Part shown: positions 18,001 to 58,438 of the stretch, piece by piece
Numbering within the stretch: the first letter of the stretch is position 1
How the letters are laid out: each line of letters starts with the position of its first letter
Source: Clavelina lepadiformis
Taxonomy: Eukaryota > Chordata > Ascidiacea > Aplousobranchia > Clavelinidae
Direction of reading: 5' to 3'
DNA length: 64,000 bases
Assembly (NCBI RefSeq): GCF_947623445.1
Contig: NC_135246.1
Coordinates: forward strand, 14,491,856-14,555,855
Notes under the pieces: generated by a model
The model's database searches: none
What the model saw: the letters and a program-made list of their open reading frames with translations, nothing else
What the model was told of the DNA's origin: nothing
Position numbers and translations under genes: made by a program

Positions 18001-21000
18001 TGGGTGTGGCGTGGAAAAATTTCCAATTTAACTTGACTGGTACTGTATTGTGACTAAGTGGGCGCCGTGTGGTGAACAGTGGAAATGGGCATTTAAGAAT
18101 GACGAAAAAAGTTAAAATAAGCAAAACTGAATAAGCATTTCATATGGTGCCGCAAAACAAAAATTTTGAGGACCATTGGTTTATTGTACATTTACCACTG
18201 AAATAGGGACGCCTTGATACAAACTTTTCTAACGTAGCCTGAATCCTATTTTGCAAACACTGTGGTTATATTTAGTTTTAATGCAGGTAACCAGCAAGAG
18301 ATTCAAGGCAGAGTGGCAGTCACAACAACGCCTCCAACAACGCCAAAATCATTTCTTTTTCCACCCCTTTACCTGTTGGGAAGAAATATAGCTCATACAA
18401 AGTAAGTCCTTGAAGCGAATCGGTGACGTTTGTTGCTACCGTCATAAAATCTTTAGTTTTTTTAAACCTATATTAATTCTACCATTGGAACAAGATTAAA
18501 ACGAAACAAGGCTACACGGTCAACGAAAGGTGGAATAACTCACAACGTATAACGAGCTTATAACTACAGTATATAAAAGAAAATCATAAACTTTTGATGA
18601 AACTATTTTGTTTACTATATTTTAGACTTGTTTCGATAATGGTATCACTCTCTAATTGGTGCATATTTGCATAAGTCAACGTTTTCCCATCACGTGATAT
18701 GATACCATGCAATGTTCAACTAAAGCCAAATGCCATTATATTTTATGTAATTATATTATCATTATATTCTATACATTTGGGCTATACAGCTGCCGACGCA
18801 CATTTTGTAAACAACATCAACATATTAGTAAGGTGTTCCCACCCTAAAATTGTATTATTACGTAGTTCAGTAACCAAAAATTAGGCCGTTATTATTCATC
18901 AATTTGTCGTGGTTTTAGTCATTTGATGATCATAATTGCTTACATAAACATTTAGCACGGTACCGGTCACCATCGCTACTACTACAACCAAAGTTCCCCA
19001 AACTCCAAGAGCTTTTGTATCAAGCATGTGAGTAAATGACAATAAATGCTGGTGCTTCATAAATGATCAATTTCTATCAGCATGTTCTTCACATAAAGGC
19101 CCTTTACGGATAAACTGATATTGTATTACATTTGAACAAAGTGATGTACTTACAGAAATAACCCTAGAAAATATAGCCAAACGGATGACCTTGTTGCCGC
19201 AATTTTGGCAAATTTGATCGAACAAGGCAGAAACAGCAAAAATCCCGAGTCGAGTTCGGTGAGCAATGCAGTGGCTCAACCTCAACAGACATTTGGGCCA
19301 ACTGCTTCGATTCCCATCTCATTTTCAAACGTCGTTCAAGGCAATGGCCCATACATACGAGCCGTCACAGACTCGCCCACCACAACGAGCAACAAACATC
19401 TTCCCTCAAGCAATAATCCAGGCTCCAAGACAACTTGCGTACACGAAGCTATCAGATCTGATTGTGGATATCCAGGCATTAGCGCCCAAGAGTGCGTGGA
19501 ACTTGGCTGTTGCTGGGATAGCAGACACGTTCGAAAAATTTGGTGCTTTTATCCTTCAGTTGTCATCCAGGAGGAACTTTATGTATCTCCTCCTCCGATT
19601 GAAGACGAAGACGAAACAAATCAAGGTACAGCGGGCATTCTAGAGTTTAAACATATAAACGGCCAACAAATTCGACTGCAAACAGCTTTTGTATTTTATT
19701 TATTTATTTATTTATTCAGAGGGAAGTCCTGGTCCCAGAAACGAGAACGGCAGTGATAAGGATGAAGGCATCGTTGAACCTCCTCCGCCTCCTACTCTAA
19801 CTAGAACAACTACAACAGCAGCAGCCGAAAACAAAGAAGAGGAGGAACTTTTGGAAAACATTTCAAAGGAAGAAGATTTTCTCGCCTTAGTGCAGGAAGA
19901 GTTATCAGGTCTAGGACAATATGCCTATGACAACACTACGACAGCAAACCCCTCAATACCAACGACACGGTCCCATTACTTCACCCGGTCAACCGAAAGT
20001 TCAGTAGCAACAACAACAACGACCTCTCCACAACAAAACCGCTTAAACGAACCCGAATGGCTTTTTCAACTGATAGCAAATGAAACAGCAAGTTCCTCGA
20101 AATCAACAACCACGACCAGAGAGGTAAGGACTTAGCCAATGCATATATTTGGTTGCATACGAGTAAGGATGATCCATTCAAGATACTCTGGGCATTTCAG
20201 ATTTGAAAAGTTTTAACGCTCAGAAACCTTGCGCCAAAAATGCTTGAAGATTGCTGGAACAATGTTTACTGACACCAGTCACTAGTTCACAAAAAAACAA
20301 AACATTTCGAGCCTTTACAATGCATTCGCTTTCGAGTGATGCCGGTAGATTATTATACGTCATATTTGACGGGCTACGTATTTTGTGTTATATAATAAAC
20401 TATCGTCCAGACTGGGTTGTTTATGCTGGTTATCCAGTTCATTGTGCTTATGAATATGATCATAATATCACTTTTATATTTACAGGACATTTTACCACCT
20501 TATACTGACGGCTTTAGTGATACATTAGGGAACACAACAACGGGAAACACAGGTCAGTGTTTAGATGAGCAAGTATAGAAAATAAACATTTTCAGTAGCA
20601 TAAATGGTTGGTGTTATTTTGTATAATCTGCTTTTAAAGATTTGCCCTTGGCACCGATCCTAACGCACGGGTCAAACGGTGTGCAGTCACCTCAGTCACT
20701 GGATGACATAGCCGCGTTTTTCAAACTTTTAGACGACTTGGAGAGAAAACGCCAGAAAGATGCGAAATCTCAAAGTCGAGTTTGCAAAGTGGACGAGCAA
20801 GGTAAAATCAACATTTTATATCTTTGGTCTTTCACCTTTCATCCCAACTACCAACCGAGAATCCATGGCTACAAGGTAGCCAGCATTTAGAAACGAATGA
20901 CAAGCTACCTTCATGAAACAGCACAATATAGTACATAATAAGAAGCACTTATACTTACAATAATTTTGATAAAAATTCACCCAACTTCTTGTTGACAGAC

Positions 21001-22531
21001 TCCGGCGAAATATTTTCTCTTAACATTTAGCGCCGGCGCGCGATTTGTTTACCTTGTGATTGGCACACGCAAGCAAGTGAGGTAAACGCACATTTCAAAT
21101 AGGGAACCTCGTGCTTTCGAGGTGAACATAAGCACCCCCGTATACTTCGGCCTTTTCAGTCTCCGGCATAACGTCATACTAATGTCCACACAACACCAAA
21201 TCTTTAAATCAGTAAATGTCAAAGTAGTATAGTTGCGGTATTTATTACAAATTTCAAATGCAGATTCTTGCTGTCGTTTGGACCCCACAGCACCCTGCTG
21301 CGAATTCCACTTAGATAGAGACTTCGCTCATAGAGCAGCTCCAATGACCCGCATTGTTGGAGGTGGACCGGCAGGCCAACTTCGACATTCCGTGGCCCAT
21401 CTGGCCAAAGGTCATCCGGTACCTAAACATTTTTGCGGAGGCATCTTGATTGACAACCAATGGGTGCTAACTGCTGCTCACTGCGTACTAGAATACTGCC
21501 ACGGCTTTAAGTGAGCATTTTTCGTTATTTGAAATATTGGACGTCTTTGATTTAAAAAAAATATGTGCTCTTTCTAAGTTTTTGAATCTTGCAGGCCCAC
21601 AACTGACCTGCTGGTTAGCTTGGGAAAATATCACAAGTCGCCCTTTTACCGTGACCGTGGTCAGCAGGATATTGGGGTGAGTGACGTCACTTGTCATCAA
21701 AATCACTGCAAGTCAAGTGGCCAGCCACGATTGAACGATGTGGCACTACTCAGACTATCTAGGTAAGCCCAAGTCTATAAACTACAGTATGTATCTATAA
21801 ACTGTGTCTCATGGTGATCGTTATTTACCGATAAATAACCCTCAGTATAATTAATCTTTGGAAAAGGTTAAATTAAACTACTATTCTTCCATGACTTTAA
21901 TCGATGCTGTATTCCAGGCCTGCTTTTATCACGCAATACGTTACACCAGCGCCAATGCCCGCCCCATTTGAAGCGCCTCTACCGAACAGAAACTGTGTTG
22001 TCTTAGGCTTTGGGTTAACTCAAGGTAACATTTATTTTTAATAAACTACCGATGCAGAAGTCGTATGCTGTAACTGTAGGAGTTTGATTCGTTTTAAGTT
22101 ATGTCCAACAATATTAAATACTGCTACTATTTAGGCAGCGGCTATGAAAGTGTAATGAAAGAGGTTTCGGTTCCAATGATTTCCAATCAACGCTGCAACC
22201 AGCCCAACTGGAGAAACTGCGTCATCCGTGCATGCATGATGTGCGCTGGCGACGTCAACATTGACCCGTGCGATGGCGACTCAGGTGGGAAAGAACTTGA
22301 AATAGAAATTGTAACCGAAACCTAGGTGAATAAGAATATCTATTTATGTGTTTCTAAACAGGTGGTCCTTTGTTTTGTCCGCGTTCGAACGGGTTATATG
22401 TATTGCATGGGATTTATAGCTGGGGTAGGTGCGGAAGTGAGGTAAGAAAACCAGCCGTCTACACCAGAGCTTCATATTTCATAGACTGGATCAGCCGCAT
22501 CAGACAGACTTTTGTTGGCAACTTTAAATAG
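15026..22531 (+). CDS. Secreted trefoil-trefoil-trypsin serine protease
   Basis: Thirteen exons: 15026-15098, 17714-17875, 18287-18401, 18956-19027, 19156-19625, 19720-20123, 20486-20552, 20640-20801, 21264-21510, 21595-21762, 21918-22024, 22135-22284, 22362-22531; 788 aa, all phases joining. Residues 1-24 are a signal peptide (MHLWKLAKLLLVLCFPGA). Two P-type trefoil domains follow, about residues 38-78 (C-x8-C-x9-C-x4-CC-x11-CFHP) and 235-274 (GCCWD, WCFYP). A long Thr/Pro and acidic linker leads to an S1 protease from RIVGG at 538. His581 (LTAAHC), Asp639 (NDVALL) and Ser732 (GDSGGP) form the triad. Asp726, six before the serine, predicts trypsin-like cleavage after Lys or Arg. It is probably made as a zymogen cut before IVGG. 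Trefoil domains bind mucin-type glycans, so mucus, gut or tunic localisation is a reasonable inference. Catalytic residues are all intact. Confidence 0.9.
17948..17990. repeat. Two-copy 22-bp tandem repeat
   Basis: The unit ATCCGGGCATCAAGCACTGA plus TT occurs twice in a row, with a partial earlier copy just to the left. It lies in intron 2 of the trefoil protease gene. Confidence 0.7.
19694..19716 (+). repeat. TTTA microsatellite at a splice acceptor
   Basis: Five to six TTTA units run directly into the acceptor TTCAG that starts exon 6 at 19720 of the trefoil protease gene. The repeat therefore serves as the pyrimidine-rich tract of a 94-base intron. Length changes here could affect splicing of that exon. 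Confidence 0.75.
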
Positions 22532-23999
22532 ATATCTCACCAATGACAGCTATACGAACTCAATCCATCTTATCAGCAAAGTTGTTTTAATTGTTGAAAG
22601 TCGTTTTAGAAAAAGGATTGTTCTTGCATTTTGACAGACCACTTACATCGATTAACCTTGGTCTGTTTTGTTATTTAATCGTTTTGTTTAGATTTATAGC
22701 GGCGTAGTTCCTGAGTGAATCGTGTGCATTTTTATAGTTTTGCTCCATCTGGGTAGTTTGTGTCCACCGGTCATTTTAGTCGTTATTTTTGTGACCATGA
22801 CAAGGTGACGTATGTCTGTCACATACATAGTGCAATTTGGTGATCCGATGCATTTCCACGATGCTATAAAAACATTAATGTGTTAATGTTTAAAACATGC
22901 CGTTAATGTGTAGCCAGTAGTGCAAAAGAAACACGATCATCTAATTCTCTTCACTGTGATAGATAATAATCATTATTTTGCGAATGTTCTGACAGTCCTG
23001 ATTCATAACAATCTTGCTCTATTATAGTATTTTGAATAATGCGTAAGCAGTTATTCGTTTTGACTTGTTTTGAATACAAGAAGTTTTTTCAGCTTCTATC
23101 TGATGCGAATAAAACTAATTTTAAAGCTTAACTGCCGAAGACGGTCCTCTTATGACACCAAGCGGCAGAAACACAATTTATAAACTAGTTTTAAAATATC
23201 CGATATAAAGCGTCTGTAGCGGAAATAGTTCTCGCATGCCGCTGGCTTGTTACAACCAAGATGTGGTTGAGCCACGCCGCAAATGTTGGGCGCGGCCGTG
23301 CATTGTTGAATTGATCTTTGGAAGCAACTTTTTCTTTTTGGCACCAACTGTAGTTGTAGCGACAAGCAACACAGCCAGCCACCAATTAGAAAGGAGATCA
23401 ATCTTTCACTGCATTGCAATCAAAACACTGCGAAATCTTTTTATTTGCGGATTTATACAGCTTATAGTTTCGCAATTTTGGAAAACGCTCTTTACCATTT
23501 TGTCAGATAACTATCTTATAAGATAAGAAGTGGGAATGATTTAGAGACAATGTTAAGCACGAGCTTTTAAGTGCATGATAGTGTGAATGAAAATGATATA
23601 CATTGTGGCGTGGTTACATGGAGATGAATAGAACTGCACAAAATTTACACAAGGATAAAGCAACTGTAAAAAATGACATTAATCTCTAAAAACACACATA
23701 GCGCGACGTTCATCCTATTTGACAAGAGTGCAAGATAACAACAACCAACTTAAGTTTTCTAATTGCCTTATTCTATTTTACTACCCATATCGGAATAGAT
23801 TGGATTACTATAGTACAGACGAAAATTATAAAAACTAATTAACAAACAAAACAACAAATGGAAAAACGTTCGGTCAACAACCTATGATGATTGTGGGTAA
23901 AAAAATACTTTCAACGGGCTTTGATCACCGCAAACATGCATGAGAATAGAAGAGGGTAACAAAATTTTTGCATTTGGATATCACCAACAAAAAACTAGT
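22532..23999. other. Convergent intergenic region
   Basis: This region lies between the 3' ends of two convergent genes and contains the AATAAA at 23108. Open frames near 23.15-23.53 kb overlap on both strands, but none has a recognisable domain or splice partner. Confidence 0.5.
23108..23113 (+). promoter_or_regulatory. Candidate polyadenylation signal
   Basis: AATAAA lies about 580 bases after the stop codon of the trefoil protease gene, on the same strand. Confidence 0.4.
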
Positions 24000-26900
24000 T
24001 CACATGAAGAAGATAGCAGCGAGAAAAGTAAGTATGGTACACAATGCAATGACAGCTCTTCCTGTTTTAGAAGATACTGCGCCGTTCCTTTTTGTGGTAG
24101 TAGAGGGGGGAGGTATACTTGCGGAAATCTGAAAAATAACATAAACGATTAGGTCACATTCTTTTGGCTGCAGGTTAACTCACAGGGAGCTAACAATAGA
24201 ACTATGAGATTAACTATAGCCACACAAAACGAGTGATACAACCTATTCATATGATAAGCGTTGGCTGCGTGACCAATGCTGAGTAATGAAATACGTACCT
24301 GCACAAGACTTGAGGGATATTTTGAGTCTCTTGTCTGACACCAGTTTTCGTCATAACCGCCACCTTCCATTGGGCTTTCAACCACGAATCTGCAGTAGTG
24401 AGCACAAAATTATTTTGATTGTCAAAAACTTCGGAAGGAAATGTGCTTCGTTTTGTGTCAGTGTTATTTCCGATTTGCAATCAAAAGCAGAGCTATGTGA
24501 TAACTAATAACAAGCTTACCTGTACCAGAACATCTTGTCGCCGCCTTCACAACCGTTGGCTTGACAATAGAATGTGTAAGTTACCTCGGTGGCCCCGCTA
24601 GGCACTGATCCGCAGTTGTTTTGATTAATTGAGCTACTACCTGTAGCGTTAACACGAAATCTTGTCAATTAAAGTTTGTTTAGCTGCAGTTAGACGTCAA
24701 TGCTACACGACACAAGCCTTACGTAAGATGTTCATTTCTTGGTTGTCCTTTACAAAGAGCGTGCCATCCTGTTGTAACTCCCATTTGATTTCTATGTGAC
24801 GATTATTTCCGCCTGTGTCACCCACGTTGACGCAGAAGGTTTCTACGAAGAAAGGGGGTAAGTGGTTTTAACTCGTTTTGTTTCTGAGACACTTCCTGGT
24901 AAACAGTTTCTTACACCCAACATTGTAGGCGGAGGTATGGTTTAAAGTTTCTCCTTTCCTTACACATCATGCGTTTTCAAATTTTGGTCAAGTTTGTATA
25001 TTAGAGACCTTTATAGTTAAAATAAAACTTACTTTGAAATGGAAGGGTCGTGACCTTGAAACCCAAAGGTCGAGCTTCATTGGCTTTAGGGTCTGTGATC
25101 AAAACATAGGTTTGGTTGTAGGAATCCTCAGGTATTGGGTCCCAGTCCTAAATAAACACGGCACAAGTCATACAGTAATATTACATAAGAACATGTCAAG
25201 GCAAAAAAATAAGTTATACAGGCATTTTCAAAGTAAATATTTAAGCCAATTGCGTCGCGATGCTGTGAATGCCATAAACCAAAATGTAAACAATGCGTTT
25301 AGCGTAGCAATAGTGGCTGTTTGTTTGTTGTGTTGACATTATATTTATGGCACAACGATTGGTGAGATATAGAGAATGAAATCATATTAATCACGTCAGC
25401 TAACAAATAAGCTATATAAATTCACCATTGGCCATATGAGTCGTCAAAGGGTACATACAGTATGCGAACCTTACTGTGCGTAGCAGCTATTATTAATTGG
25501 CTACAATACAGTATTTTGGTAGCATTAAGGAATCATCTACCAACGGTCAATCGTTTGTCTTAGTTGTGCAAGATTAACATGAAAACGTTATTCACTCTGA
25601 CCCCAAATAGCATTTTAACACAGCGTCGTATACTTACTTACTTACTTACCTCAGGACTAGTACATGCTTGCTGTGATGACAAAGTTATATACGTTGACAG
25701 CAACAATAAAATGGCGCACAACCTCATATTCTACAAAAATCTGTTTCTATACGCCGACTACAGAAAAGCCTACTTCTTAATTCAAAAGTAAAATCACATG
25801 AGTGTCCGAAATTTGTCTGCAGAAAAGTGATTTTTTCATTCGTAGAGATAGAATATAAAAGATTCTGAACAATCGATGACCTTTGCGGTTTGAATCGCAG
25901 TCCTTAATGTTACTAAATATATACATACTGGCCATCAATTTCAAACCGCATTGAGAAGAAACTGCATTTCTCAAAAATATTCTTTTCGTACGTACTTTAC
26001 GAAACAACCGGTTTCGCCACAACTACTTGCATCTTAGCCTGTCATTTATGACTACCTTGCCGCACCGAAGGATAAGAATAAAAAAGCTTATCACCAGAAA
26101 TAGTAACAAATCTTTTTGTAACTAAAGGCAGCAACTATAGTCTAAAGCGCAGCAACTATACTGGGCCTTCACATTATAATCAGCAGTGATTGGTTAGGTT
26201 ACTCAAACCTACCTCAAACTATTTCTCTTGGTAACATATTATGATACTTTACTATACTCTATTCGCCCGATTTAGGCAATGTTATTTCGAGATACTTGTG
26301 GTCTTAACGTGTGGCTGTGGCTAGTAAGGATAACATGGAATATAACAAAAACGGTCACAAGTACCTACAATTACAATCCTTTCAAGCTGCTGTAAATGCA
26401 CTTATTGTCCTTTTTCAATTTTTCATGTTTCTGCAACTGCACTGGCAGGCTGGGCTGACGCTAATCTCGCAAAATTTCCTTCATGTTGTCAACAAACTAT
26501 ACCGGAAATGAACAAATGCGTATAAAACGACAATTTTTTTTCGTTTTCATTTGTTAATCCCATGATAGTAGCCTACATAACTCGCTAGCTAAGTATGCTG
26601 AAATGATTGCGGAAATAGCAAAGACCATGACGTCATTTTATTGTCTTTTAAATGACTCAAGCGCTCACTCTAACGAATGCAAAGTACTTGTTAAACATAT
26701 GCGTCTTTTGCAACGTCAGCTAGCACCTCGCCTGTGTTAGCGTCTAGCGTTAAGTGCTTACGATGCCACGGAAAAGTCTGGATTAAGCTGTTTCTATATG
26801 TATATAGAATGGTTAGTCCGTATATAAACTACGACAAGAGGTCAATTTTTTCCAGACTATTACCTCGGGGCAAGAACGGTTACTGTACGACGTAACAGTT

Positions 26901-29900
26901 GACATGGCGACTCTTTTAGTGGTAAAGGACTCTGCATCGTTTTTTTGTGAGGTTGTTGTGGACGGCTGAATACTTGCAGGAAGCTGAAAAAGTCAATGAA
27001 ACCACTTACGATGCAAAATTACCAACTGAAGCGAACAATACCTACGAAAGGGTTATAAGTTATTGTCAGTGGTAGGATTCAAATATTTTAACATTCGGTT
27101 CTCTCACTAGCAGCATGCCATATTGACCCGGGGCCGATATACACATAGGCCTATATATACGCTTGTTAACAACCGGTTCGCGGAGGTCATTAAAATTCCG
27201 AGAACCGGTTCGCACGAACCGGTGCGAGCTGGCTGAAGTCCACCACTGGTTATTGTAAAATGAACACTGCTCGTGCGTTAGCTACACGTGAAAAATATTA
27301 AGTGAAGTCATGCAAACCTGCACAAGACTTGAGGGATAATTTAAGTCTCTTGTCTGGCACCAGTTTTCGTCATAACCGCCACCTTCCATTGGACTTTCAA
27401 CCACGAACCTTTTTGAAATAGTCAGCACGGAATTATTTTGAATGTCAGACACCTTGCTTTGCCTATATACCTACATACACAAGTGTTTGCTTTTGTTTGT
27501 TGCTGCCAGTGTTTTTTATGTTTAGCGATCAGAGGCAAAGCAATAACGAAAGGAATTTCGATCTTACCTGTACCAGAATATCTTGTCTCCACCTTCACAA
27601 CCGTCCCCTTGACAATAGAATGTGTAATTTACCTCAAAAGCCCCGCCCGGTACTGTTCCGCAGCTGTCATGATTGATCGTGCTACCACCTACATAGCCAT
27701 TACATAGTATCAAGTTAAACAAACTCTTGAAGATTGTCATAAAATTACATTAACAAAACCATCAAAGCAAAATTTCCCAAACTGGAAAAGATTGAACCGG
27801 AATTATTTAAACTGGACTTAATCACCTAGAAAATGAAAATGCGGAATTGATCAAACCGGAAATAATTAAAACGAGGAATACCAAAGTTTTAGCGTATTAC
27901 ATTAGATTTCAATATAACCTGAGTTAAAACTTTCAATATTTTGTTGTAATATTTTAAATATGTAATTTTATAATATGTAATATATTATCTTCCCTTTTCC
28001 ATTTATCAACGTGCTATAGTTTTAAGTGTCGCAACTTTTAGTAGCAATAATTAGGCGGCAACATTAACCACCAAAAGTCTTACATAATTCGTTTGCATCT
28101 TGTTGGTTTCTTACGCAGAGTTGACCAGATTGTTGTAACTCCCATTTGATTTCTATGTGACGATTATTTCCGCCTGTGTCACCTATACTGACGCAAGTAG
28201 CATTGCCTACAAAGAAGCAGGATAAGTGGTTTAAAGTCTTTTGTTTTTGAGGCACTTTCTAATAACATCCTGTATCTTACATTTACAATGCATGGAACTA
28301 CGGACCAACTTTTCTTCTCCCAGTAACGCAACTCAATAATCCAATAAAGCTTACCATGAACTGAAAGGGTCGTGACCTTGAAACCCAAAGGTCGAACTTC
28401 ATTGGCTTTAGGGTCTGTGATCGATACAAAGGTTTGGTTGTAGGAATCCTCAGGTATTGGGTCCCAGTCCTAAACAAATATGAATGCTATATAATGTTGT
28501 TTGTTGATATTATAGTTATTGCACAGATTGATTAAATTATGAGAGTGAAATCGTATAATTCTTGTCAGCTAACGAATACTATAAATTCATTATTTTCCGC
28601 TGTTGTAGTAGCTTACTTTATGTAGCAACTGATAGTTGTGCAAAAATATTTTAGTAGCATTTATGAATCATCCACAAACAGCAAATCATTTATTCTGATT
28701 ATATAATAGCAGCATCAAACATTATTCACATATACATCGGAAGAATTACTTTGATTTGTTTTATGGACATGTATTTATTATGAATAATTATGTATTTATT
28801 ATTATTATGAACACGCACAACAGCAATAACAAGAAAATGGTTTCCAGCAAAGGAAATAAGAAATGAAGAAGTGAAGAAGTGAAGTGCGGAGAACTAACGT
28901 CAGAAAGTATAAGTGAAGAATGGCCACGCATCTCACATATGCAGACCGAGTGAAGCGACAATGGCACAACGATATCGCGGCTGAGTACAGCAACCATCGA
29001 GAAGTGACGATCCAGTTAGCAAACGACAGTAAAAGGGAAGACATCTACAAACTGATAAAAGAAACCCAAATACCGCTTAGCTACATTGAAGGGATCATCC
29101 AAAAACCAGGAAACGTGGTAAATATAACGATAGAAAGCAAGAAAAATGCAATACGCTTTGCAGATATATCTCGGAAGCTACCAGAAGTGAAATACGCCAC
29201 AGCTCATGGAGACGACAGAACAGATCTCACCATCAGATGGGTGCCAATCGATTACCCGCAACGACATCTGGACAAAATCCTTGCGAAATATGAAATCAAA
29301 GGCCCAGCCCAGCTGGGAAAGGACAAACACGGAATCAGAGATGGCAGAAGGATTTATAAAGTACACAAACAAATGACGCAACAACTGCAACTCCCCTCAT
29401 ACTTGTACCTGGGAAAGATTCGATGTGCGGTGAGTTACGACGGACAGGTTCAAACATGTTCTTATTGTTCCGAACAGGGCCATAAGTTCAAAGAATGCCC
29501 CAAGAGAAAAGAGTTATTGGAAATGGTCGAGGAAAAGAGAGCCCACAATGCAGAGATCAGCCGGCCAACAGAGGTGAATCCACCAAAGGAGAGCCCCAGC
29601 CACGACCCAAATGAACCAACCCCAGAACAGCAGAAAACACGAGAAAACAAAAGAAACGACATGAACGTGGACGCAACAGAAAACCAGAAGAAACAGGAAA
29701 CACAACGAAAAATAAATGAGCCGCGACGTCGAGCAAAGGAGACGAGCGCCTGGGATAGGAGCCGAGCAAAATCAAGGACTCCACGGGAAGAGAGCCCGGA
29801 GCTCAACTCTAATGCGAACCGAGGGAACAAAAGGAAAGATATCAGCGGGGACTCAACAGAAAACCAACAAGAACAGGAATCACAAAGAAGTAAGATAGGT

Positions 29901-30424
29901 CATATGGCATATGACTTTGCCGAGTTGCCAATAGACGAACTTACAGATTTCCGATGTGCTTGCAAAAATTATGTACAAGTCAGGAGAAGCAACGACCCAG
30001 AGAAAGAAGCACCACAACTTGAACAACCGGTGTACTGCGAGGAATGTAATGGAGCTTTAATACGATGCAACTGTACCGACTTTTCGTTCCATTTCGTAAA
30101 CAATAGATACGATCAATGTTATTTTAAATGCTGTGACATGAAATATAAACCGAACCCTAGCGAACTCAATCACACAATTTTCTGATCTAAACTGTGTTTT
30201 TTCTATTTCCGATAGAAACCTGTGTTTCCCTTTTTTTTACGAGCATTTTTTTTTAAATTTTCATTATTAAGCGTGTCTTAATTGTTTGAGAAACGTTTAA
30301 TAAACAAAAACAACATGTATTTACAGTTATTCAATCAACTTACCTCACATGTTTGATACAAACGTAACGATAAAATAAACGTAATATAGGTTACCAGTAG
30401 CAAAAAAATGCCGCAGAATTTCAT
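24000..30424 (-). CDS. GPI-anchored-type protein with two novel Cys-rich modules
   Basis: Eleven exons, right to left: 30344-30424, 28355-28469, 28084-28206, 27568-27688, 27318-27408, 26864-26983, 25033-25147, 24723-24842, 24520-24640, 24299-24389, 24000-24128; 408 aa, phases all joining. Exon 1 is a signal peptide (MKFCGIFLLLVTYITFIL). Exons 2-5 and 7-10 code two copies of a module of about 150 residues that begins DWDPIPEDSYNQT and contains GDTGGNNRHIEIKWELQQ, FYC, GCEGGDK, FWYR and SPMEGGGYDENWCQT. Exon 6 is a Ser/Thr linker. The last exon gives a Thr-rich stalk, small residues (NGAVSS, 381-386) and a terminal hydrophobic run with no cytoplasmic tail, as in GPI-anchor signals. Each module follows a cysteine-glutamate junction (TCE, CPE). 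I do not recognise the module family. The role is unknown; surface recognition or adhesion is only inferred. Introns contain a hAT MITE and an antisense retroposon. Confidence 0.85.
27067..27248. mobile_element. hAT-type MITE, 182 bp
   Basis: The left end is CAGTGGTAGGATTC and the right end, read from the other strand, is CAGTGGTGGACTTCAG, so the ends are inverted repeats. The element is flanked by a perfect 8-bp duplication GTTATTGT (27059-27066 and 27249-27256). An 8-bp duplication is the rule for hAT elements. It has no coding capacity and contains ACCGGTTCG palindromic stretches. It sits in the intron between exons 5 and 6 of the two-module gene. Confidence 0.88.
28920..30185 (+). CDS. 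Zinc-knuckle ORF1-like protein, 421 aa
   Basis: An uninterrupted frame from ATG at 28920 to TGA at 30185. The N-terminal half (about residues 1-180) resembles the nucleic-acid-binding part of LINE ORF1 and ZCCHC3-type proteins. It ends in a CCHC knuckle, CSYCSEQGHKFKEC, near residues 181-194. A charged, low-complexity middle follows, containing an internal duplication: DMNVDATENQKKQETQRK and DISGDSTENQQEQESQRS. The C-terminal end carries a second cysteine cluster (CAC, CEEC, CNC, then C and CC) that is not typical of ORF1 proteins. The likely role is RNA binding. A polyadenylation signal lies at 30299. The frame is intact, which suggests a recent insertion or selection. Family placement is by pattern only and remains uncertain. 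Confidence 0.75.
   Translation: MATHLTYADRVKRQWHNDIAAEYSNHREVTIQLANDSKREDIYKLIKETQIPLSYIEGIIQKPGNVVNITIESKKNAIRFADISRKLPEVKYATAHGDDRTDLTIRWVPIDYPQRHLDKILAKYEIKGPAQLGKDKHGIRDGRRIYKVHKQMTQQLQLPSYLYLGKIRCAVSYDGQVQTCSYCSEQGHKFKECPKRKELLEMVEEKRAHNAEISRPTEVNPPKESPSHDPNEPTPEQQKTRENKRNDMNVDATENQKKQETQRKINEPRRRAKETSAWDRSRAKSRTPREESPELNSNANRGNKRKDISGDSTENQQEQESQRSKIGHMAYDFAELPIDELTDFRCACKNYVQVRRSNDPEKEAPQLEQPVYCEECNGALIRCNCTDFSFHFVNNRYDQCYFKCCDMKYKPNPSELNHTIF
30299..30304 (+). promoter_or_regulatory. Polyadenylation signal of the retroposed copy
   Basis: AATAAA just upstream of the A-rich end of the insertion, 114 bases after the stop codon. Its position fits an insertion made from a polyadenylated transcript. 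Confidence 0.6.
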
Positions 30425-31708
30425 ATTATCTCCGAAATTCTATAAAAGTTCTACTACTTCAAGGTAAAGTTATATGAATTATTTTTAGAATAGACTTCTG
30501 TTTTTTCATGGATCTGTTAAATTTGTGTCCTCTCGTATTTGATCATCCTCTTTAGTGCAGTGCTTTACAACCCTAGGAAATTTATTCAAAAAAACCTATT
30601 ACATACAACCAACCGGAGTTATTGAAGAATAATTGCAAAATTAACTTTCAGAAACCCGAGAAAGAACTTTGTTTAATTACCGGTAACTGAAATAAGTAAT
30701 TAAATAAGTAATAGTAACCAAACAATAGTTAAATAGTAACCAATAAATAAGTAATTAAATTTAAAAATTCTTAATGCAAAAATACAAGGGACGCCTGGGC
30801 TTAAACTTCCAATTTCCATGAAGAAACACATAGTCACTCAACCTTTTGTCAGTCGTCGGTAAAATAGAGCTTTTCTACTTTCCTAAGAACCATTTCTATT
30901 ACGGTTACATCTTTTTGAACATGGCTTACGGGATTTTAAAAAACTTTCTCAAGTTGGAAATCTACCCCATCGCTGTTCTGGTTGTCACAAAATTGTGGGG
31001 AACGAAGTCCCAGCTGCGTCTATAGGTTGTTAATCCTTACTTTTTGACAAAATTTACATTACTGATTGAAGTGAACCGCTATTGCAATTATCTTAAAATG
31101 AGGGGCAAATCCAAGCTAATCTTACATGAAAGAACACTATCAAGTATCAACTGAACATTTTGGTAAAATATTTTTGAAAATTATTTGTGATTAGGTAGTT
31201 ATCGGCAAAAGAAAATCATAAAAAGTCTCAAATTTTGGCTCATTGTGACGTAGGTGAAGGATCTTGTTACGTCATGAACCAGTCAAGATGCTTGACAACA
31301 TGCTGCATTTGTTGCTTTCCTTGCGTGGAAGTCAACTGAAGTCAGAAGAGTTGGCCATAGGAGTTTAGCCTGTTCACCTACCAAGCTATTGGCAGAGAGA
31401 GCGATCTATACAGCTGTAACAGATACATACGTGATATACAGTAAATATTGCTAATGTATGAAATTGCGAATGTTGTGTGTGATTACCTATGAGATCACAG
31501 GAGACTTGATCTGCGTTACAATTACGGCCAGTTTTGCGATTTTTTTTTTGCTTATAATTACCTAACCAAAAACTATTTTTCAAAAATATTTCACCAGGAT
31601 ATTCAGTGAGTAGTGTTCTTTCATATAACATTAACTTGTTTTTAGACTTGCGCTCTTAGACTCCTCTGACATTGTTAGGAAGCGCAAGCTTTGAAACTCA
31701 GACTCAGT
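30425..31708. other. Intergenic upstream of the two-module gene
   Basis: This region should hold the promoter of the minus-strand two-module gene. It is AT-rich with a short stretch of AATAAGTAATTA-like repeats near 30.69-30.77 kb. I see no coding exon. Confidence 0.45.
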
Positions 31709-31712
31709 TTAA

Positions 31713-32745
31713 CCCTAGAATGCATACATGAAAAAACTTACGCCAATGCATAACAGGGGTCATTTTGACCCCTATTGCTATTACATGCAATTCTATTTTA
31801 AAGACATTGAATATTTTTCTTCTTGTTCTTTCCTTGTCTCTTCCATTGGCGTTATGATGACATATCTAGAGTTTTTGCTGCATTTTAATGAAACAACCGA
31901 CGTAAAACAGTATAAAGGAGTCGATGAGAAAATGAAAGAAAATTCCAGAACAGTTCACATTACAACGCATAGCCTGATTCATTTACTGCATTTGTTGTAT
32001 GTGATCATGGTCACGCTGTGTTCTGGGCACACGGGTCTGCAACATCTTGAGCAACATTTTGCAATTAACTTTCTTATCCTTTGCGTGTGGACATAAGGAA
32101 CACCGTTTCCACTTCTGCAACGTGTTTGCTGTGTGCAGGGATGTACTTCGAAAAGCTATGCCACATCTCACCATAGCCTCTCTTGTGGCTCTGTGGAGTT
32201 GAGGAATTTTCTGTCTTGTCATTATGTCGAGCAAAATGAGGCAGTTAGCAAGATCTGTTATGAAACCTCGATGCTTTGAACCTTGTCCACTCTGATAATC
32301 AGGATATACTTGTCTGAATATGGTATATGCATTTAGAGCTGCGATGTCAAGCAGGTTGTAAAAGAGAACTAGAGGCCATCGGCGGGTTTGTCGTTTGCAA
32401 AGATATGTTTGAACCATTTGGTCAACCAAGTCAAAACCAATCTTTGTCTTGTTATAAAACCTGATGATCTCAGGCCTCTTTTTTGGGTCTTCTACGTTAA
32501 TCTTATATCGTGATGCATGCTACGGGTCAAAATGACCCCTGTTATGCATTCTAGGGGTATTTAATGAAAAATGCATTTTCCTTGTCAAAAATAAAATTTT
32601 ACAGAACAACCGTTTTCTCATCATGTATAAGTATAAAAGGGCAACAAAGTCAAGAAAATCCAGGAGTTAATTCGCAATATGCGTTAAGCAGTTATGATGA
32701 ATAGCAACGTTTGGGTCATTTTGACCCCTGTTATGCATTCTAGGG
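31713..32745. mobile_element. Internally deleted piggyBac element
   Basis: The element starts CCCTAGAATGCATA and ends in its exact inverse, TATGCATTCTAGGG. TTAA flanks both sides (31709-31712 and 32746-32749), the piggyBac target duplication. Inside is the C-terminal part of a transposase on the minus strand. The palindrome GGGTCATTTTGACCC recurs near both ends (about 31758-31774 and 32713-32727), and a second right-end-like copy lies at about 32523-32556. At 1033 bp it is too short for a full transposase and is non-autonomous. Confidence 0.92.
31979..32519 (-). pseudogene. piggyBac transposase, C-terminal remnant
   Basis: Reading leftward from about 32519, the frame gives DPKKRPEIIRFYNKTKIG, then DLVDQM and TRRWPLVLFYNLLDIA followed by LNAY. 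This matches the last third of the DDE_Tnp_1_7 transposase, including the Asp of VDQM. After RCSLCPHAKD the cysteine-rich tail continues in a different frame (KCCSRCCRPVCPEHS, ending at 31979), so one small indel separates them. The N-terminal two thirds, with the other catalytic aspartates, are missing. It cannot encode an active enzyme. Confidence 0.88.
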
Positions 32746-46415: not shown

Positions 46416-48125
46416 TCACCGGTTATATGAAGAATGTACGTTAGAATAAACATTGGACCCAACGTTATGAACAACGCAGGGGGAGAGGCCGGCCATATCA
46501 GTCGATGCTTGCTGGGGATACTCATACCCGTATCCGGCCGAATACGGAGGAGTAGCCGGGGTGCTGTACGATTGAAAGCTACAGGTTGAATTGCAGTCGC
46601 CAGGGACGAAACTTGATCCGAGAGTGGGATGAACGTTGTAATAGGAGGGATTTGTTCGTGTGTATGTTTGCGAGGAGGCCGTCCTGCACATATCGGGTGA
46701 TGGATATTGCGCATGTCCATATGTGTTCATAACCTGCCCGCTAAGAGATCTTGACGGGGACCAGTCACTGTAGCGTCCGTACGAGCCCAGGTGGTATTTG
46801 GTATTGTGACTAAATTGGGAATACGAGCTGTAAACATTGTCCACAAATCCAAACATGGCTGCTCTGGACGGATCCAACATGGATGAAACTGCTCCAGGAG
46901 TCGGCCTGTAAGGTCTCTTCATCCTTCTCCGGCGTCGGTAGTTGCCATTTTCAAACATATCTTCGCAGTTTGGATCCAGCATCCAATAGTTTCCTTTTCG
47001 TTCTCCTCCGCCTTCTCTTGGAACCTTGATGAAGCATTCGTTTAAGCTCAAGTTGTGCCGAATGCTGTTCTGCCAGCCCTTCCTGTTCTTTTCATAGAAG
47101 GGAAATTTGTCGACAATGTACTGATAAATGGCGGACAAAGTCAGTTTCTTTTCTTCGGACTCACGAATAGCCATTGCGATCAAAGCTACATAGCTATAGG
47201 GAGGCTTTTGTACTCGGTTCTTTTCGTCGTCTTTGTTCGTCGTTTTAGCTGAATTCAAATCTTTTTCATCGGCGTTGTTTCTATTGTTTGATTTGGCCTG
47301 CTCTGGCTCTTTTGTTGACACTTTTTCTTTAATGGAACTGGTTTTATCACCGTTGTTGCATTTCTTATTGACCGGTAAAATTTTTGTCTCATTTTTGTTA
47401 GATTTTTCACAATAGTCGTCCGAACTGCTCGAAATCTTATATTCCATCGGTTCGTTGCTGCCACTGGAAGACAGATCCGACGAATGACTTTCTGAAGAGG
47501 CTGAAGACTGGACTTCACTCATTGCAACTGGAAACTTGCGGTCTGGGATTGGAGATGTCGGTCCATTTCTGGTCATTGCATCGTTCTTGTATGATCCGTC
47601 ATCAAACCTTTCCTTGTGACCCTTTCGTGAAAGACAGGAGCTCTTGTTATATTCGCTTGAAGAAGTCACTTGATTAAAGTTGCCGTTTCCATCTGATAAA
47701 ACCTTTTCCGATGAACGCTGCCTGTCCGTCGATAGATTTTGATGGATTTCACTATAGTTGTGAATGGAATCAAGCTGACTTTGTCCTACATGTTGACGTC
47801 CATGGTGGTTGCTGACGTTAAGACTGGCGTCATCTGTGACGTAAGCTTGCGGATACTCCTCAAGTTTAGATGAGGTAGCGTTTGCGTAATAGTCGTGTCT
47901 TTGGTGGTAAGAATTTTTGTTCAACTGATCATTGCACCCAGGGTTATAACCGAAACTGTAGTTTTGTATGGAGGTGGGTGTATCATAGCAGGGATCGTAC
48001 TGGCCCCAGCATTCTGCATTGTAAAATGTTTTTCCATCGTAGCTCAACTTTTCGTAACCTTGCAAACAGCGATCGCTCGACGATTTCAGAAGTAAATCGT
48101 GGCCGTAGTTCATTGCCGCAAACAT
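46416..48125 (-). CDS. FOXL2: Forkhead transcription factor FoxL2
   Basis: A single exon of 569 codons. An in-frame TAA lies five codons upstream of the first ATG (48125), which fixes the start. The forkhead DNA-binding domain spans about residues 300-400: [17 protein letters not shown], then [32 protein letters not shown] and RRRRRMKRP. The wing segment and the trailing arginine block are the FoxL2 signature. The long N-terminal half is Ser/Asn-rich and disordered. The C-terminal part is Tyr/Ser/Pro-rich, with many SY and YS pairs as in FoxL2 activation regions. At 569 residues it is longer than the 376 of human FOXL2, through the N-terminal extension. FoxL2 acts in the nucleus, in vertebrates chiefly in ovary and pituitary; the ascidian role is not known from the sequence. 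Intronless structure is normal for FoxL2. Confidence 0.96.
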
Positions 48126-51100
48126 TGGATCCAATTCTTATTGTGTGTGTTTCTTGTATTTTCCGAAAATAAATCTTACCAGGAAAGTAACGCAGTTTTT
48201 CTAAAATATATCTGTAACATTAAACATTTTTGCTTAGAAAATCAAATCGCAGTATTTATTCATTGTTAATGTACTGTGGCGAAACCGACCTCAAGTAGCT
48301 CGGAATTTAAATTGAAATCACTCCATGCAATGAAAAAATGCGCTTGATTTTGTCAACGCACTCAAACTACTCTGTTACAAGCTTTTTGCTATATATATTA
48401 TTCTTGTTTCGCTTCCTTGCTGGGTACAAGGGCGCCAACAAAACAAAACCAAAAATCTAAAAGTATTTAAAAGAAAATGAAAAAAAGCTTAATTTTTTGC
48501 CACATAGAGGCCTACGTATGTACCAAAATTTTTACAACGGTAACTTTTACGTCAAATAACATCATTTTATTCTGTGCCTCACCGAAGAAATATTGTTACA
48601 AAAATTCAACGTTATTAGTTGTCCACTCCAATGCCAAACTCTTTCGTTCTCGCCCGAAAATGACGTGGCAGCTATAACGTTATCTTGGTTAGGGGAAATA
48701 CGAAGATAAACTTTAATCCGTTTTTCTCAATGAAGTCGAGGAATAAACCGCTGATTTGGGGTGGATGACGTTGATGTAGTACCATACGCGGCGATCCTTC
48801 ACGCATGACGTAATGCCATATTGTACGTTATTTTTACTGGACACAATAAAATGCATTTTCAAAAAGCCACCCAACGTTAAAAAATCAACTTTTACTCCCA
48901 CATTAGCCAGTCATATAGGAGCCGATATGAAATAAATAGCTATCATTAATATCGGTTTAACATTTTCCGGCTTATATATTTTATAGCGACAATTTATAGA
49001 TTCAAAATTTTCCTAAAATACGTTGTGCTAGAAACTTGTTGCATGCTACTTTGTATTGGTAAACTCATTCTTATTAACTTGTATCAATTTGCGAAAAATT
49101 GAAAAAAAATTGTATAAAAATACTAACAGTCTAAATATAAAAATATGCAACCTTTACCGTAATTCCTTTGCTAAAACTATACTGCTGAAATGAACCATCC
49201 GGTAAACAACTTAAAGTAAACATTTGCTGATGAAAAAAACTGAGCCATCCAAAAGATACAAAAGTGAAATATGAAGATGTAGCATTACAAGACAAGTAAA
49301 AATAATAATATATTTTAAAACAGCAGCCTATAGCATATCGATAATTCTCGTTTGGCCGCCGTCCTTTTTACCCACCTTTCAACGACCATTTGTTTGAACA
49401 GATAGTGCGGATCCAGTTACTCGGTCAAGAGGCAAAACAAGACAACTACAATAATACACGTGCGAAAAGCGTTTAGCTTTGCGTAAAATGAGTAAGTCAA
49501 ACAAAAACGTTTAGCTTTTCGATAGGAGGCGTAACTCCATTAGACACACGCATATTCTTACAAAAGTAACGATTTAATGGAGAAAGAGCAAAGATGTAAA
49601 TGTTATTCTTAGCCTGAAAGTCGAAAAATACAGTTTTAAATTTTAGAAACATTTAATCAATGTCATAAGTCACTATAAATAACTACTAAAATTAGGCATT
49701 AGTTTTACGAATTATTTATTACTATTTAAACGGTTACAGCTAAAGTTAAGAAAAAATATTTTTGTTTGTTAAGCGTCATTTTATGTTTTGTATTTTTGCA
49801 AAATCTAAAATGAAATATAGCTTCGCAAAGGAAAAGGAGTGAATGATTAAGTGATCGTCCTCAGTGGTCATTTGATACAATCGATACAACGATGGCACAT
49901 CAACCTGTGCAAGTTTTTTCTCACAACCAAGCTAATCATTTCACTGCGCTTGTTGCTTCATCATAATTGTGCGTTTGCGCATCGGGTAATTTACAGAAAA
50001 CTATTCAGCCATTTTGAAGCAGTAAACTATATCGTCAGGCCTACTTTTGAAATACTTTATAATTTTGTGCTAAACACTACGCTCAGTTTAATTCACCAGC
50101 ATGTAAAAATATCAAGTGTGGGTTCAGGTTTAACCTTTAGAAAAAAAATCTTGCTCTTAATGGTTCTTGAAATGAAAACATGGACAATAACTTAAATACT
50201 AAATATAGTAAAATAAGTAAATAATCCCTGCCTAATACATTCGCAACTTTAGTTCATAAATCAGCAACCAAATACAGTTAGCAAAATCTGCTCGTCCTTG
50301 GAGCTTCCCAATTTAAAAAGTCCTTTGCTGTACGTAAATCGTTTTCGAGAGAATCTGATAAAGCTGCCGTTTAAGGTCTATAAGCGGTGACTGCCTGATC
50401 CAACTAAAAAGCCTAGCCCACGTCGATTGAATTGTTGGGTGGCATTGGAAAGAAGTAAAAGGAGGGCGAAGGGGGTGAACGATTTCGATCAGCGATGCCA
50501 GTCAGAGGAGGTAGAGCGAGAAATCGCATTATAGAACCTGAAAAACTGCTACTGTGCCAGGGCGGACTCGTTTCCTTCGAACGATGACAACTCTCTCGGA
50601 AAAAAACGTCATCACAAATTAAACGATACCTTTTTTTTAAGATCTTGCTGGAAATGTGCTTGACAACTAAATTTGTAACAGGGGCTAGAATAAAAGGTTT
50701 GCATACAAAGCGTGCGAGTCTCATATTTAAGCCCTATACAAGACATGCATAGCTGTTATCGCCGCTCTTTACTATATTTGCTTGTGGTTCTTAGATTTAG
50801 TTTGTCTACTAGTCCGGTATTTCTTACAAAATGCTATAGCGCAATTCTATATTTTTGATTAAAAAAGCAATATTGATAAGTAACATCCGCCGGGTAAAAT
50901 TAGGTTTAACACGCACGGTTGTCGTCTCGCAGAGTGTTTTCAGGCGATGTTAGTTTTCAACTTTTTTGGCCGAAATTATTTCGATAAAGATGAATTTCAG
51001 TGACCCAAGAATGCATTCACCCAACAAAATCATCTTCAATGAAGCGCATCAGTCATCTGTGAACAAGATTTTCCGTAAATTTTAACAGAGCCTTCCGTTA

Positions 51101-54459: not shown

Positions 54460-55863
54460 TCATTTGTGCCAACTACCAAGAGTAGTTTTCTGAAGTGAGA
54501 TAAAGTTATTTGAAGTTCCCCTGGTCTGGCTAAGGTCCATATCACAGTCGAAGTTATGGAGAGACAAATGTTCAGGACATTTTCGCTTTTCGATTTGCCT
54601 TATGTGGTGATTTTTCTCGTGTCGTTCTATTTCTTCTTGAATACGATTCTGAAACAATGTTTTATAGCAGATGTGAGTTATTGCAAGTTATGTTAAATAA
54701 AAACAACGTTAAGATCCCATTGCACAGCTAAGGAACTAAAGTTACGCCTCGGTCTGTATAAATGTATCCATGCTACTAACACATCAAAAATATGGTGATT
54801 GGAAGCATAAAAAGTAGGCTATTAGTAACAACATACCCAGTCTGTCTTTCTTCTTTTAATAGCAACCATATTTGGGTCGATCTTGAACTCATCAAGTTGT
54901 CTTTTGTTGTTATTCGTCTCGTGGCAGATTTCCTCATCTTCGGAAATAAAAAATGAATCTTCACAGGGATTAGATGAGGAAGAATTCTAACAAAAGATAA
55001 ACGTGTACTTAACCGCATTCAATCGATACGTGGAATAAAAGTCTGTGCTGATTCCGAAGCCAAAATTTGTAAATAGAACTTCAACTCACCGTTTTGTCTT
55101 TCTGCAAAACATTGCCTAAGTACTTGATATAGTCGGCCGCTAGTCTAAGCACTTTTATCTTTGAGACCTTAGTATCCGAAGGTAAATTAGGGATCCTGTT
55201 TCTCAGGTTATCAAAGGCTTTATTGATGCTTAAGTTGCGTTCTCGTTTTCGAAGATTCGTCTTCACTCGATGGTATTGGATTATGGATTTGTTCGGTGAA
55301 TAGCTGGGCCTCTTATTTTCAAAAGGGTACCTCTGAAGAAGTGTGAAGCCGTTAGCTTCGGCGTAATTTTCCCGTTCTCCATCAGGACTCACGTAACACG
55401 CTTTACTGGTATTAGAAAGCTGAGGAAGCTCGATCGGTGTATACGAGAAATGAGTTTGGGATGAATTGCTACCCACCCTGTCATACGAAAGATCAAAATA
55501 CTTTTGACTGCTTTCATGGAATTGTCCTGTGTTTAAAGATTCAGTTGCAATGGAAGGTGCGATTGTAGGATCCAGGAACGTTTCCTGAGGATGACATAAC
55601 TCCTGGGCAGAGGTCATAGGAACCGTGGAAGCTGCTCTGTCAAAATGTGCCGTCCATTTTTCGTTTAAGTTCTGTTCATCTTCATTATAATAAGACGAGT
55701 ATCCATCTTGGGCGCAATGGTTAGGTCCCAAAAAAGATCTTGCAGACATGCTGGAAAACTGATCTTCCGTTGAAGAAGGTTGTTGCTTATATTGAGCAAA
55801 GTCTGAATAATCTAACCCGAAGTCTAAAGTCTTTTCATTCATATCAACTATGGTTGGCGTCAT
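54460..55863 (-). CDS. Hand: Hand-family bHLH transcription factor
   Basis: Three exons, right to left: 55090-55863, 54837-54986, 54460-54648; 370 aa, all junctions in phase 0. Exon 1 ends with a basic helix-loop-helix domain at about residues 203-255: [19 protein letters not shown], the loop IPNLPSDTK, then [16 protein letters not shown]. The loop and start of helix 2 match HAND proteins (IPNVPADTKLSKIKTLRLA) better than Twist. The basic region is less conserved, so the divergent ascidian Hand-related gene (Hand-r, also called NoTrlc) is the likeliest counterpart. The N-terminal 200 residues are Ser/Tyr/Gln-rich. The tail has an acidic patch, a basic KRRK and a charged helix ([15 protein letters not shown]). 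Hand factors act in the nucleus as dimers with E proteins in heart and lateral mesoderm. Hand versus Hand-r is not settled here. Confidence 0.85.
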
Positions 55864-58438
55864 TATACAGCTTTGTACCTCGATGAAAAAACATGTAAGA
55901 TTACACTTACATAATTTTAGCTATAGAGCCGTCCTTTGTCACTTGTAATCAATTATAGTTGTTAAACGTTAAGTCGATTCGTCATTAAGTTCTTTTCTAT
56001 AACTTTTACATCTAATGCTTCTTAATTTAAATGTCTAAACTTTCCGTTTTTTTTTCAACTAGAATCCACGAGTAAATTTCTTCCTGTACTAACTTTATAC
56101 CATCTTTGCATTTTTGCTTTTCATGAAAGTGAAAAAAGCCGAAACTTTGCAGTAGTAGCGGTCAATGCGACACTTCCAATCGTATAGAGAAAGATTCCAA
56201 GCAATCATATAATATCACCTCACTTTTATCCTTGTCAAAATAGAAAAGCGAAACGCGGTGGAAAGAGAAAGGCTCCTACGGGACTAATTAGTGTTTGCAA
56301 ACTTGGTCAGATGATGATGTAATGAATTAAAAAGACGTCGCATTGTTTCAAGAGTTTGCGCGGCGATTTAAGTGTGTTTATCTTTTATTTACATCAGGTG
56401 TCTCACTAAGACTAAAGCATTAACAAACAGAATCAAATATAGTCGACAGACTGGACCGAGTTTAGAACAAGTGCTAAGTGAAACTTAACCTGACACCAAA
56501 CACACATTTGAGTGACAGGGCGAATAGCTCTCGAGTCTAAAGATATTGCCGACAAATTTATTATTCGAATGACCTACATTTCTCTTTTGACCAGCCGCGA
56601 TAATAAAATATTTGGGAGATGTTAACGCATTACACGAATAGTACGAAACATCTGAAAACTTTAATTATTCACAATGGGTTACAATCACAAAGACTATTCA
56701 GTTTACCGAAAGTCTGCCTGTTGCAAAAACACGTAATTAGCACTTGCACACTTCTCAGACACAACCGTCTAGTTTGCGACAAGTGAAAAACAATTTTTAC
56801 CTTACTCAAAATTATTTTATTTGAAAGTGAATCAGGATTCACGCTGAGATGACGACAGCAACTTTAATGGATAAAAAAAGGAAAAATTTAAAGTTAGTTT
56901 AATTAAATTTCCGACTTTTTCGGAGATAGTCGAAATAGTTCGGAAACGACTTTTCGCACCCTACATTTTAACTCGTAACAGTTTTAACGATTTACGTTTA
57001 AGATAATTTTGTTGTTGACTGTAATATTTTAGAATTTTTATTCAATTATACTAGTAAAAACAAAAAATGATGGTTTTAAAAATAAACCTATTTCTTATGC
57101 ATCCATAACACACATTGCGTTAGGTAAGAATTTAGCAACTATACATTTGACATGAGTATTTTATTTAAAAAAGTTGGTTTTCGTTGGTGTGAGTATGAGC
57201 TATTTGAAGGGTCGCATGAAACTAAAATTTATTTCAGACTAACGCTTTCGAGTTATGGTGGAGCAATTTAGGTTAACAATGAGAAGAAATAAAACTTCTC
57301 ACGGGCCCCAGTATATCGGATTTACGAAACTTCACTTACACCTTGTAAGTAATGAGGACAAAACTGACCGTACAGCGCAATACACTTTTAATTCTTGAAT
57401 CTACGTTATTTAGATTTTGAGGGCAACTAAGCCAGAGACAGCTCATACGGAAATCGACCGATTTAGGCCTTGGTGCCGAGAGGCAATGGTATACGACTAA
57501 AGATAACAACGTGAGATATAACGACGCGTGCTAAAAAGCTTTATTAGGCAATCTAAACAATCCATTATCACCTAACCAAGCAGCATGATATTGTACAAGT
57601 ACCGTAAAGTATATTTGCTGAGCACTTCTAAAACTGAAGTTCGGAATGGACGTTTTGGTCGCACTTCTTCTGAATTTTATTACAACAGTAAGCTGTGAAA
57701 GACACGATCGCTTCTTGAGAAGCAATAAGTGAAAAAATAAATACAAGTAGAAAAAATAAACCTATGCACAGTATACTCAAAGACGAACAAAACTTTTAAC
57801 AAAATGACTGTAGAAGAATCGCCGTACCGCAGACCAATTATATCTGTCATTATCAACAACAAGTTCAAAAATTATCGATATTACCAAAATCTAAAGCACG
57901 AAAGTACCAAACACCTAAAAGAAGTCATCGAAACCGCAAGAACCTTGCTTGACTAGGTGGTTACGTCAGCTGGTTCAAACCGATGACCCTAACACTGTAC
58001 GTTTAACAGGACGATGCTTGTCCTCTCAAAACGAGGTAATATCTGACATGAGAGCACAGTGGCGATATGTGACTGGTGAATGACATTCTTTTGCATGTTA
58101 ATAAATAAAAAAAATTTTCTTCAGTTCAACCCAGTAATAAGCAGGACTGAAATAAAGCAGTCGTTTTCATGCTTTTGGTATTTTTGAAAACTTTGTTATT
58201 ATAAATAGACGGTATAGGATACCTATCAAGCTGGAAAAAGTTAAACAACACAATCGATTGTGACGCGATCTGTCACGTGATGTATGCGTACATCCTCATC
58301 GACGTCATAACCGGGATACACCCGCATGTTCTCCGCTGACGTAAGACGTGTGGCCGCACGCAACAAGAATTAAGTGTTACGTCACGAAAGCAAAGCGTGA
58401 TACAGCGTGTTTTGCTTCCGTTTTCCAGTGGGTACGAG
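55864..58438. other. Hand upstream region
   Basis: AT-rich, with no supportable exon. It should contain the Hand-family promoter on the left and the PPP2R3 3' UTR on the right. No repeats or RNA genes were recognised. Confidence 0.5.

Follow-up and report, generated by a model that had tools for sequence, protein, structure and literature searches.

Among described cell-surface proteins, the closest in layout to the gene considered here are the two-domain GPI-anchored receptors of the Ly6/uPAR and Ig types, while two domain families, the ephrin domain (PF00812) and the WIF domain (PF02019) of WIF1 and RYK, recall its repeated module when inspected by eye. Ephrins are GPI-anchored in ascidians as well. 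Budding, regeneration and self recognition in colonial ascidians all require surface proteins, and orphan GPI-anchored proteins are plausible candidates for such roles. Here, we consider one orphan encoded in a 64,000-nucleotide stretch of the Clavelina lepadiformis genome (hereafter the window), corresponding to positions 14,491,856-14,555,855 of a 20.45 Mb contig. We read the locus as one gene for a secreted, probably GPI-anchored glycoprotein with two disulfide-rich modules, which would derive from fused tandem one-module genes and would likely bind a ligand. We give this reading a probability of roughly 0.6.

Six exons can be defined for each of two copies, all on the minus strand and all with AG acceptors and GT donors. 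The phases following successive exons are 0, 1, 1, 2 and 0 in either copy, and both sixth exons are in phase 0. Running from 30424 down to 24000, exons 1-6 of copy 1 (leaving by a gtaata donor after 26864) and exons 2-6 of copy 2 splice in frame and without a stop into a 408-residue protein. The features are listed below, with every exon except the second signal-peptide exon belonging to the 408-aa model.

30344..30424, minus strand: exon 1, start codon and signal peptide, ending in Cys-Glu right ahead of the module exon
28917..30185, plus strand: 422-aa open frame of an ORF1-like mobile element, lying in intron 1 and not part of the gene, with a weak zinc-knuckle match below cut-off
28355..28469, minus strand: exon 2, first part of module 1 (DWDPIPEDSYNQT...)
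28084..28206, minus strand: exon 3, second part of module 1 (GDTGGNNRHIEIKW)
27568..27688, minus strand: exon 4, third part of module 1 (YTFYC, GCEGGDK, FWYR)
27318..27408, minus strand: exon 5, last part of module 1 (DENWCQTRD)
26864..26983, minus strand: exon 6, Ser/Thr-rich linker, alignable to the GPI-tail exon of copy 2
25650..25727, minus strand: second exon encoding a signal peptide (MRLCAILLLLSTYITLSSQQACTSPE), related by homology to exon 1, with phase 0 and a GAG/gtaagt donor, and left out of the NCBI model
25033..25147, minus strand: first part of module 2
24723..24842, minus strand: second part of module 2
24520..24640, minus strand: third part of module 2
24299..24389, minus strand: last part of module 2
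24000..24128, minus strand: last exon, Ser/Thr stem, GPI-type tail and stop codon

The spliced translation agrees letter for letter with LOC143464611, an uncharacterized C. lepadiformis protein of 408 aa at NCBI, whose record carries no assigned function and no precomputed Pfam domain. The original prediction had described a signal peptide exon, two four-exon modules, a Ser/Thr linker and a hydrophobic tail; all of these are present, and the joining of exons that it proposed is the same as that of the NCBI gene model. The 26864/25147 junction is likewise backed by this model, which is itself predicted. The gene is therefore already in NCBI as a predicted uncharacterized protein, and it is the module that stays unplaced.

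The mobile element in intron 1 had been absent from the earlier reading. It is a high-copy element: with the first 213 residues of its open frame as query, the genome shows at least 151 matching places (305 candidates, 150 scored), some at more than 90% identity. Around 17.943-17.950 Mb on chromosome 1, five copies follow one another at intervals of about 1.57 kb in what looks like a tandem array, a spacing that suggests a short element consisting only of the open reading frame. Upstream of the surface-protein gene, a transposase piece at 31983-32519 (minus strand) matches DDE_Tnp_1_7, which we take to be of the piggyBac type. On the plus strand, 19145-22530 encodes a trefoil domain together with a trypsin-like stretch, perhaps of one trefoil-protease gene, whose end, as read by eye, meets that of the surface-protein gene in a tail-to-tail arrangement. 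The window also contains a forkhead domain within one long open frame (46416-48137, minus strand) and a bHLH domain within an open frame (55081-55920, minus strand). No RNA families were found in 22000-32500.

As read by eye and from hydropathy, the 408-aa protein starts with a signal-like hydrophobic stretch and finishes with a Ser/Thr stem, an N-G-A triplet, a polar spacer and an 18-residue hydrophobic end with no residues beyond it. These last 18 residues have a mean hydropathy of 2.65, and there is no cytoplasmic tail. The N-terminal signal, hydrophobic tail, polar spacer and small-residue site that characterize GPI-anchored proteins are all found, judged from sequence and hydropathy alone. 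The protein is thus probably secreted and, with predicted GPI addition, anchored at the cell surface, in agreement with what had been proposed. The protein carries five N-glycosylation sequons, and Ser/Thr make up 39% of the linker.

The two modules (149 and 150 aa) are 77% identical. At the DNA level, the blocks with module exons 2, 3, 4 and 5 are 93%, 72%, 76% and 86% identical over 136, 163, 187 and 124 nt, respectively, and the duplication of the module is therefore not due to chance. The conserved motifs GDTGGNNRHIEIKW, GCEGGDK, FWYR and DENWC, to which attention had been drawn at the outset, occur in both copies. The copies are under coding constraint, with a dN of 0.133, a dS of 0.304 and a dN/dS of about 0.44. 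Synonymous divergence varies by exon (24299-28469), being 0.04 in exon 2 and 0.12 in exon 5 versus 0.59 and 0.62 in exons 3 and 4. This unevenness (P about 1e-4 in a Fisher test on rounded counts, the test having been picked after the numbers were seen) suggests gene conversion of the outer module exons.

The mature modules contain 8 cysteines (module 1) and 6 cysteines (module 2), both even counts, with the pair at 96 and 107 occurring in module 1 only and both of its members missing from module 2. The modules are thus predicted to be held by disulfides. In a single-sequence AlphaFold2 model (mean pLDDT of 37.8), beta strands appear in the modules at low confidence only, and the modules are probably mostly beta-strand.

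The evidence for how the two modules came together lies in two exons. The second signal exon (25727-25650), which is intact and was absent from the earlier reading, aligns locally with exon 1 with a score of 28, start codon and donor included, compared to 17.5 for the best of 500 shuffles. The linker exon in turn aligns with the GPI-tail exon of copy 2 over its first ~80 nt with a score of 23, the best of 500 shuffles reaching 14.0. Because a signal exon stands in front of module 2, the ancestral gene is likely to have had one module, and because the two signal exons are homologous, as are the linker and GPI-tail exons, we infer that two tandem one-module genes were fused. Most simply, a whole one-module gene would have been duplicated in tandem and the two copies then fused, with single-module isoforms being possible. 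The ancestor would have consisted of a signal exon, four module exons and an exon with the Ser/Thr stretch and GPI tail. After this gene was duplicated in tandem, copy 1 would have lost its hydrophobic tail, with its last exon turning into a linker, and a donor in the linker exon would have come to be spliced past the signal exon of copy 2 into module 2, yielding the fused protein. The order given here for these steps is presumed.

The same exons could also belong to two separate tandem genes, one for a 233-aa secreted one-module protein and one for a 217-aa one-module GPI protein, with the 408-aa model being an annotation merger. When exon 6 is left unspliced at its gtaata donor, it reads through to an in-frame stop ending at 26813, giving the 233-aa product, while the 217-aa form would result if the second signal exon were spliced to module 2. 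Besides its homology to exon 1, the second signal exon retains a strong, canonical gtaagt donor, whereas the gtaata donor of the linker is weaker. An AATAAA also lies ~170 nt past the potential stop of copy 1, although chance alone would place 1.02 such signals in the 1.1 kb stretch inspected. It may be that automatic annotation merged two tandem genes to produce LOC143464611, a point that we count against the single fused gene. However, NCBI annotates the joined 408-aa protein, and the tail of copy 1 is not hydrophobic. The linker exon furthermore ends in Cys-Pro-Glu, fitting the conserved cysteine that stands just ahead of the module in each of the three exons able to lead into one (TCE, SCPE and ACTSPE), and the 188 candidates retrieved with the 217-aa form from 5.77 billion proteins (lengths 119-380) included no match at E<=10. 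We consider two separate genes unlikely.

A further possibility, overlapping with the fused gene, is that both forms are made: an alternative first exon would produce the one-module GPI protein and an upstream promoter the two-module protein, corresponding to a monovalent and a bivalent receptor. The linker exon and the second signal exon are both in phase 0 and are thus able to use the same acceptor, and the latter is still open with its cysteine kept. Counting against this is that the same search of the protein collection (188 candidates, E<=10) returned no single-module product, and we entertain the production of both forms only tentatively.

For the fused, two-module protein that we favor, the most likely job is ligand binding by the two modules. 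Paired on a flexible, Ser/Thr-rich stalk, they would bind a ligand on other cells, matrix or microbes in a contact-dependent manner. As it stands, the locus seems to illustrate neatly how two tandem genes can merge into a single two-module gene while the older signal exon survives, and its importance would be greater if a structure revealed a new fold or a binding partner turned up.

The original prediction placed the module in no recognised family and suggested a profile search. In Pfam, under filters that leave most matches weaker than an E of about 0.1 unseen, neither copy has a match above cut-off, with the same outcome when pieces were used, and no strong match to a known domain emerged. 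The 217-aa copy-2 form has no match in NCBIfam, and the PDB holds no significant match by sequence (copy 2) or by profile; the module thus remains without a recognised family. The Pfam families FN-plug, DUF3019, Cadherin_2 and IL17R (E 0.028 to 0.19) fall below cut-offs, and the copies disagree on them. An immunoglobulin domain was also considered and rejected: there is no Pfam Ig match, and the PDB antibody matches (E 0.035 and 0.48) misalign the cysteines and are, like the Rab matches, attributable to chance. ML/NPC2, ricin-type trefoil and CUB patterns, also considered, receive no support in the Pfam scans.

Searches for homologs gave a similar picture. Among 5.77 billion proteins, LOC143464611 itself is the sole match at E<=10 among 4,432 candidates, in a search that detects relatives sharing exact five-residue words. 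Because the collection includes many vertebrate proteins, lamprey among them, as well as LOC143464611, the absence of relatives sharing such words is meaningful, and the suggested restriction to this lineage is borne out at the sensitivity available. Viral and prokaryote contigs, searched with two short peptide patterns only for each, yielded no relative. Within the genome (209 Mb in 95 contigs), queries with exons 2, 3 and 4-5 recovered no copies beyond the two modules of LOC143464611, in a word-based first look by which distant copies could be missed. The published assembly is described as comprising 210.1 Mb in 102 scaffolds (PMC10884593), slightly larger than the copy searched. Literature listings on tunicate and Clavelina surface, secreted and regeneration proteins, on WIF in ascidians, on Clavelina allorecognition and on the locus name show nothing on LOC143464611. 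As only one gene was found, the idea of a recognition or adhesion family is not supported; what stands is a predicted surface protein with an unplaced module, and no expanded recognition family was found.

A more far-reaching reading would make the module a new extracellular domain confined to Clavelina or close relatives, displayed in one- and two-module GPI forms through alternative first exons. The fusion would then have been recent and have occurred by exon skipping, with the GPI-tail exon becoming the linker and the ancestral signal exon being kept. We regard this combination as doubtful.

Were the module instead a diverged WIF domain, the protein would bind Wnt. With a home-made profile built from five WIF1 sequences, Drl-2 and the Clavelina RYK-like domain, module 2 scores 10.0 bits (P about 3e-5) and module 1 scores 6.0 bits. 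The score of module 2 was reached by none of 20,000 shuffles (14,576 reported, best 8.9) and by none of 10,000 in another set. A stretch of ~55 residues in module 2 is collinear with the family in having a W, then G-[TS]-V-P, then FxC, and by eye, an intron lies a few residues ahead of GTVP in the RYK-like gene and likewise in the module. However, the family was picked by eye among thousands, for which a P of 3e-5 is within chance, and WIF is therefore a lead only. The 6.0 bits of module 1 were reached by 3 of 10,000 shuffles (best 12.2), the hhalign probability is 3%, and neither module has a Pfam WIF match, whereas the genome's true WIF domain (RYK-like, on chromosome 9) matches Pfam at 2.9e-26. 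Also by eye, the LxG motif that WIF domains carry close to their beginning is missing from the module, and the intron in common is not in the same phase. When aligned WIF1 sequences were supplied to AlphaFold2, mean confidence over residues 31-170 was 29.6 versus 37.6 without them, and the whole-model mean pLDDT was 36.7 with WIF relatives versus 37.8 without, both with a MAFFT alignment that is imperfect and misplaces the central strand. Overall, we consider a WIF domain improbable.

Descent from an ephrin domain appears more improbable still. By eye, the spacing of three cysteines in module 1 (26 and 11) is close to that in a Clavelina ephrin (27 and 11), YTFYCQ in the module resembles YTFYFQ, and CQTR occurs near the end as in ephrin-B2. 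When scored with an ephrin profile made from Clavelina and human sequences, however, the modules obtain -0.1 and -0.4 bits, values matched by 2,398 and 4,078 of 10,000 shuffles, and the hhalign probability is 0.3%. Module 2 is without two of the compared cysteines and so without the full set of four cysteines that are conserved among the ephrin sequences. The curated Pfam profile matches neither module, while it readily finds the Clavelina ephrins: a scan of the genome gives 14 matches, none of them at the LOC143464611 locus. The ephrin genes of Clavelina lie on chromosome 4 (16.77-16.81 Mb and 4.49 Mb) and chromosome 7 (11.96-12.00 Mb), and by eye, the receptor-binding domain appears split over one exon more in the chromosome 4 genes than in those on chromosome 7. 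Both WIF and ephrin are persuasive by eye and unsupported once scored, which indicates how easily a cysteine-rich module of 150 residues suggests relatives by eye.

In comparison with these known systems, the similarity to the WIF domain is a weak, collinear one over ~55 residues of module 2, from which the module departs in its extra cysteines, its mostly different exon borders and its lack of the LxG motif near the start, and the score is not significant after the choice of family. To ephrins, the likeness lies in the GPI-type tail, as in the ephrin-A type, and in the cysteine spacing of module 1 as seen by eye, whereas the lack of profile support, the absence of two of the compared cysteines from module 2 and the presence of clear ephrins elsewhere in the genome set the two apart. 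Finally, although its module matches none of their families in Pfam, the protein resembles the two-domain GPI-anchored receptors of the Ly6/uPAR and Ig types in its signal peptide, repeated cysteine-rich module, Ser/Thr stem and GPI-type tail.
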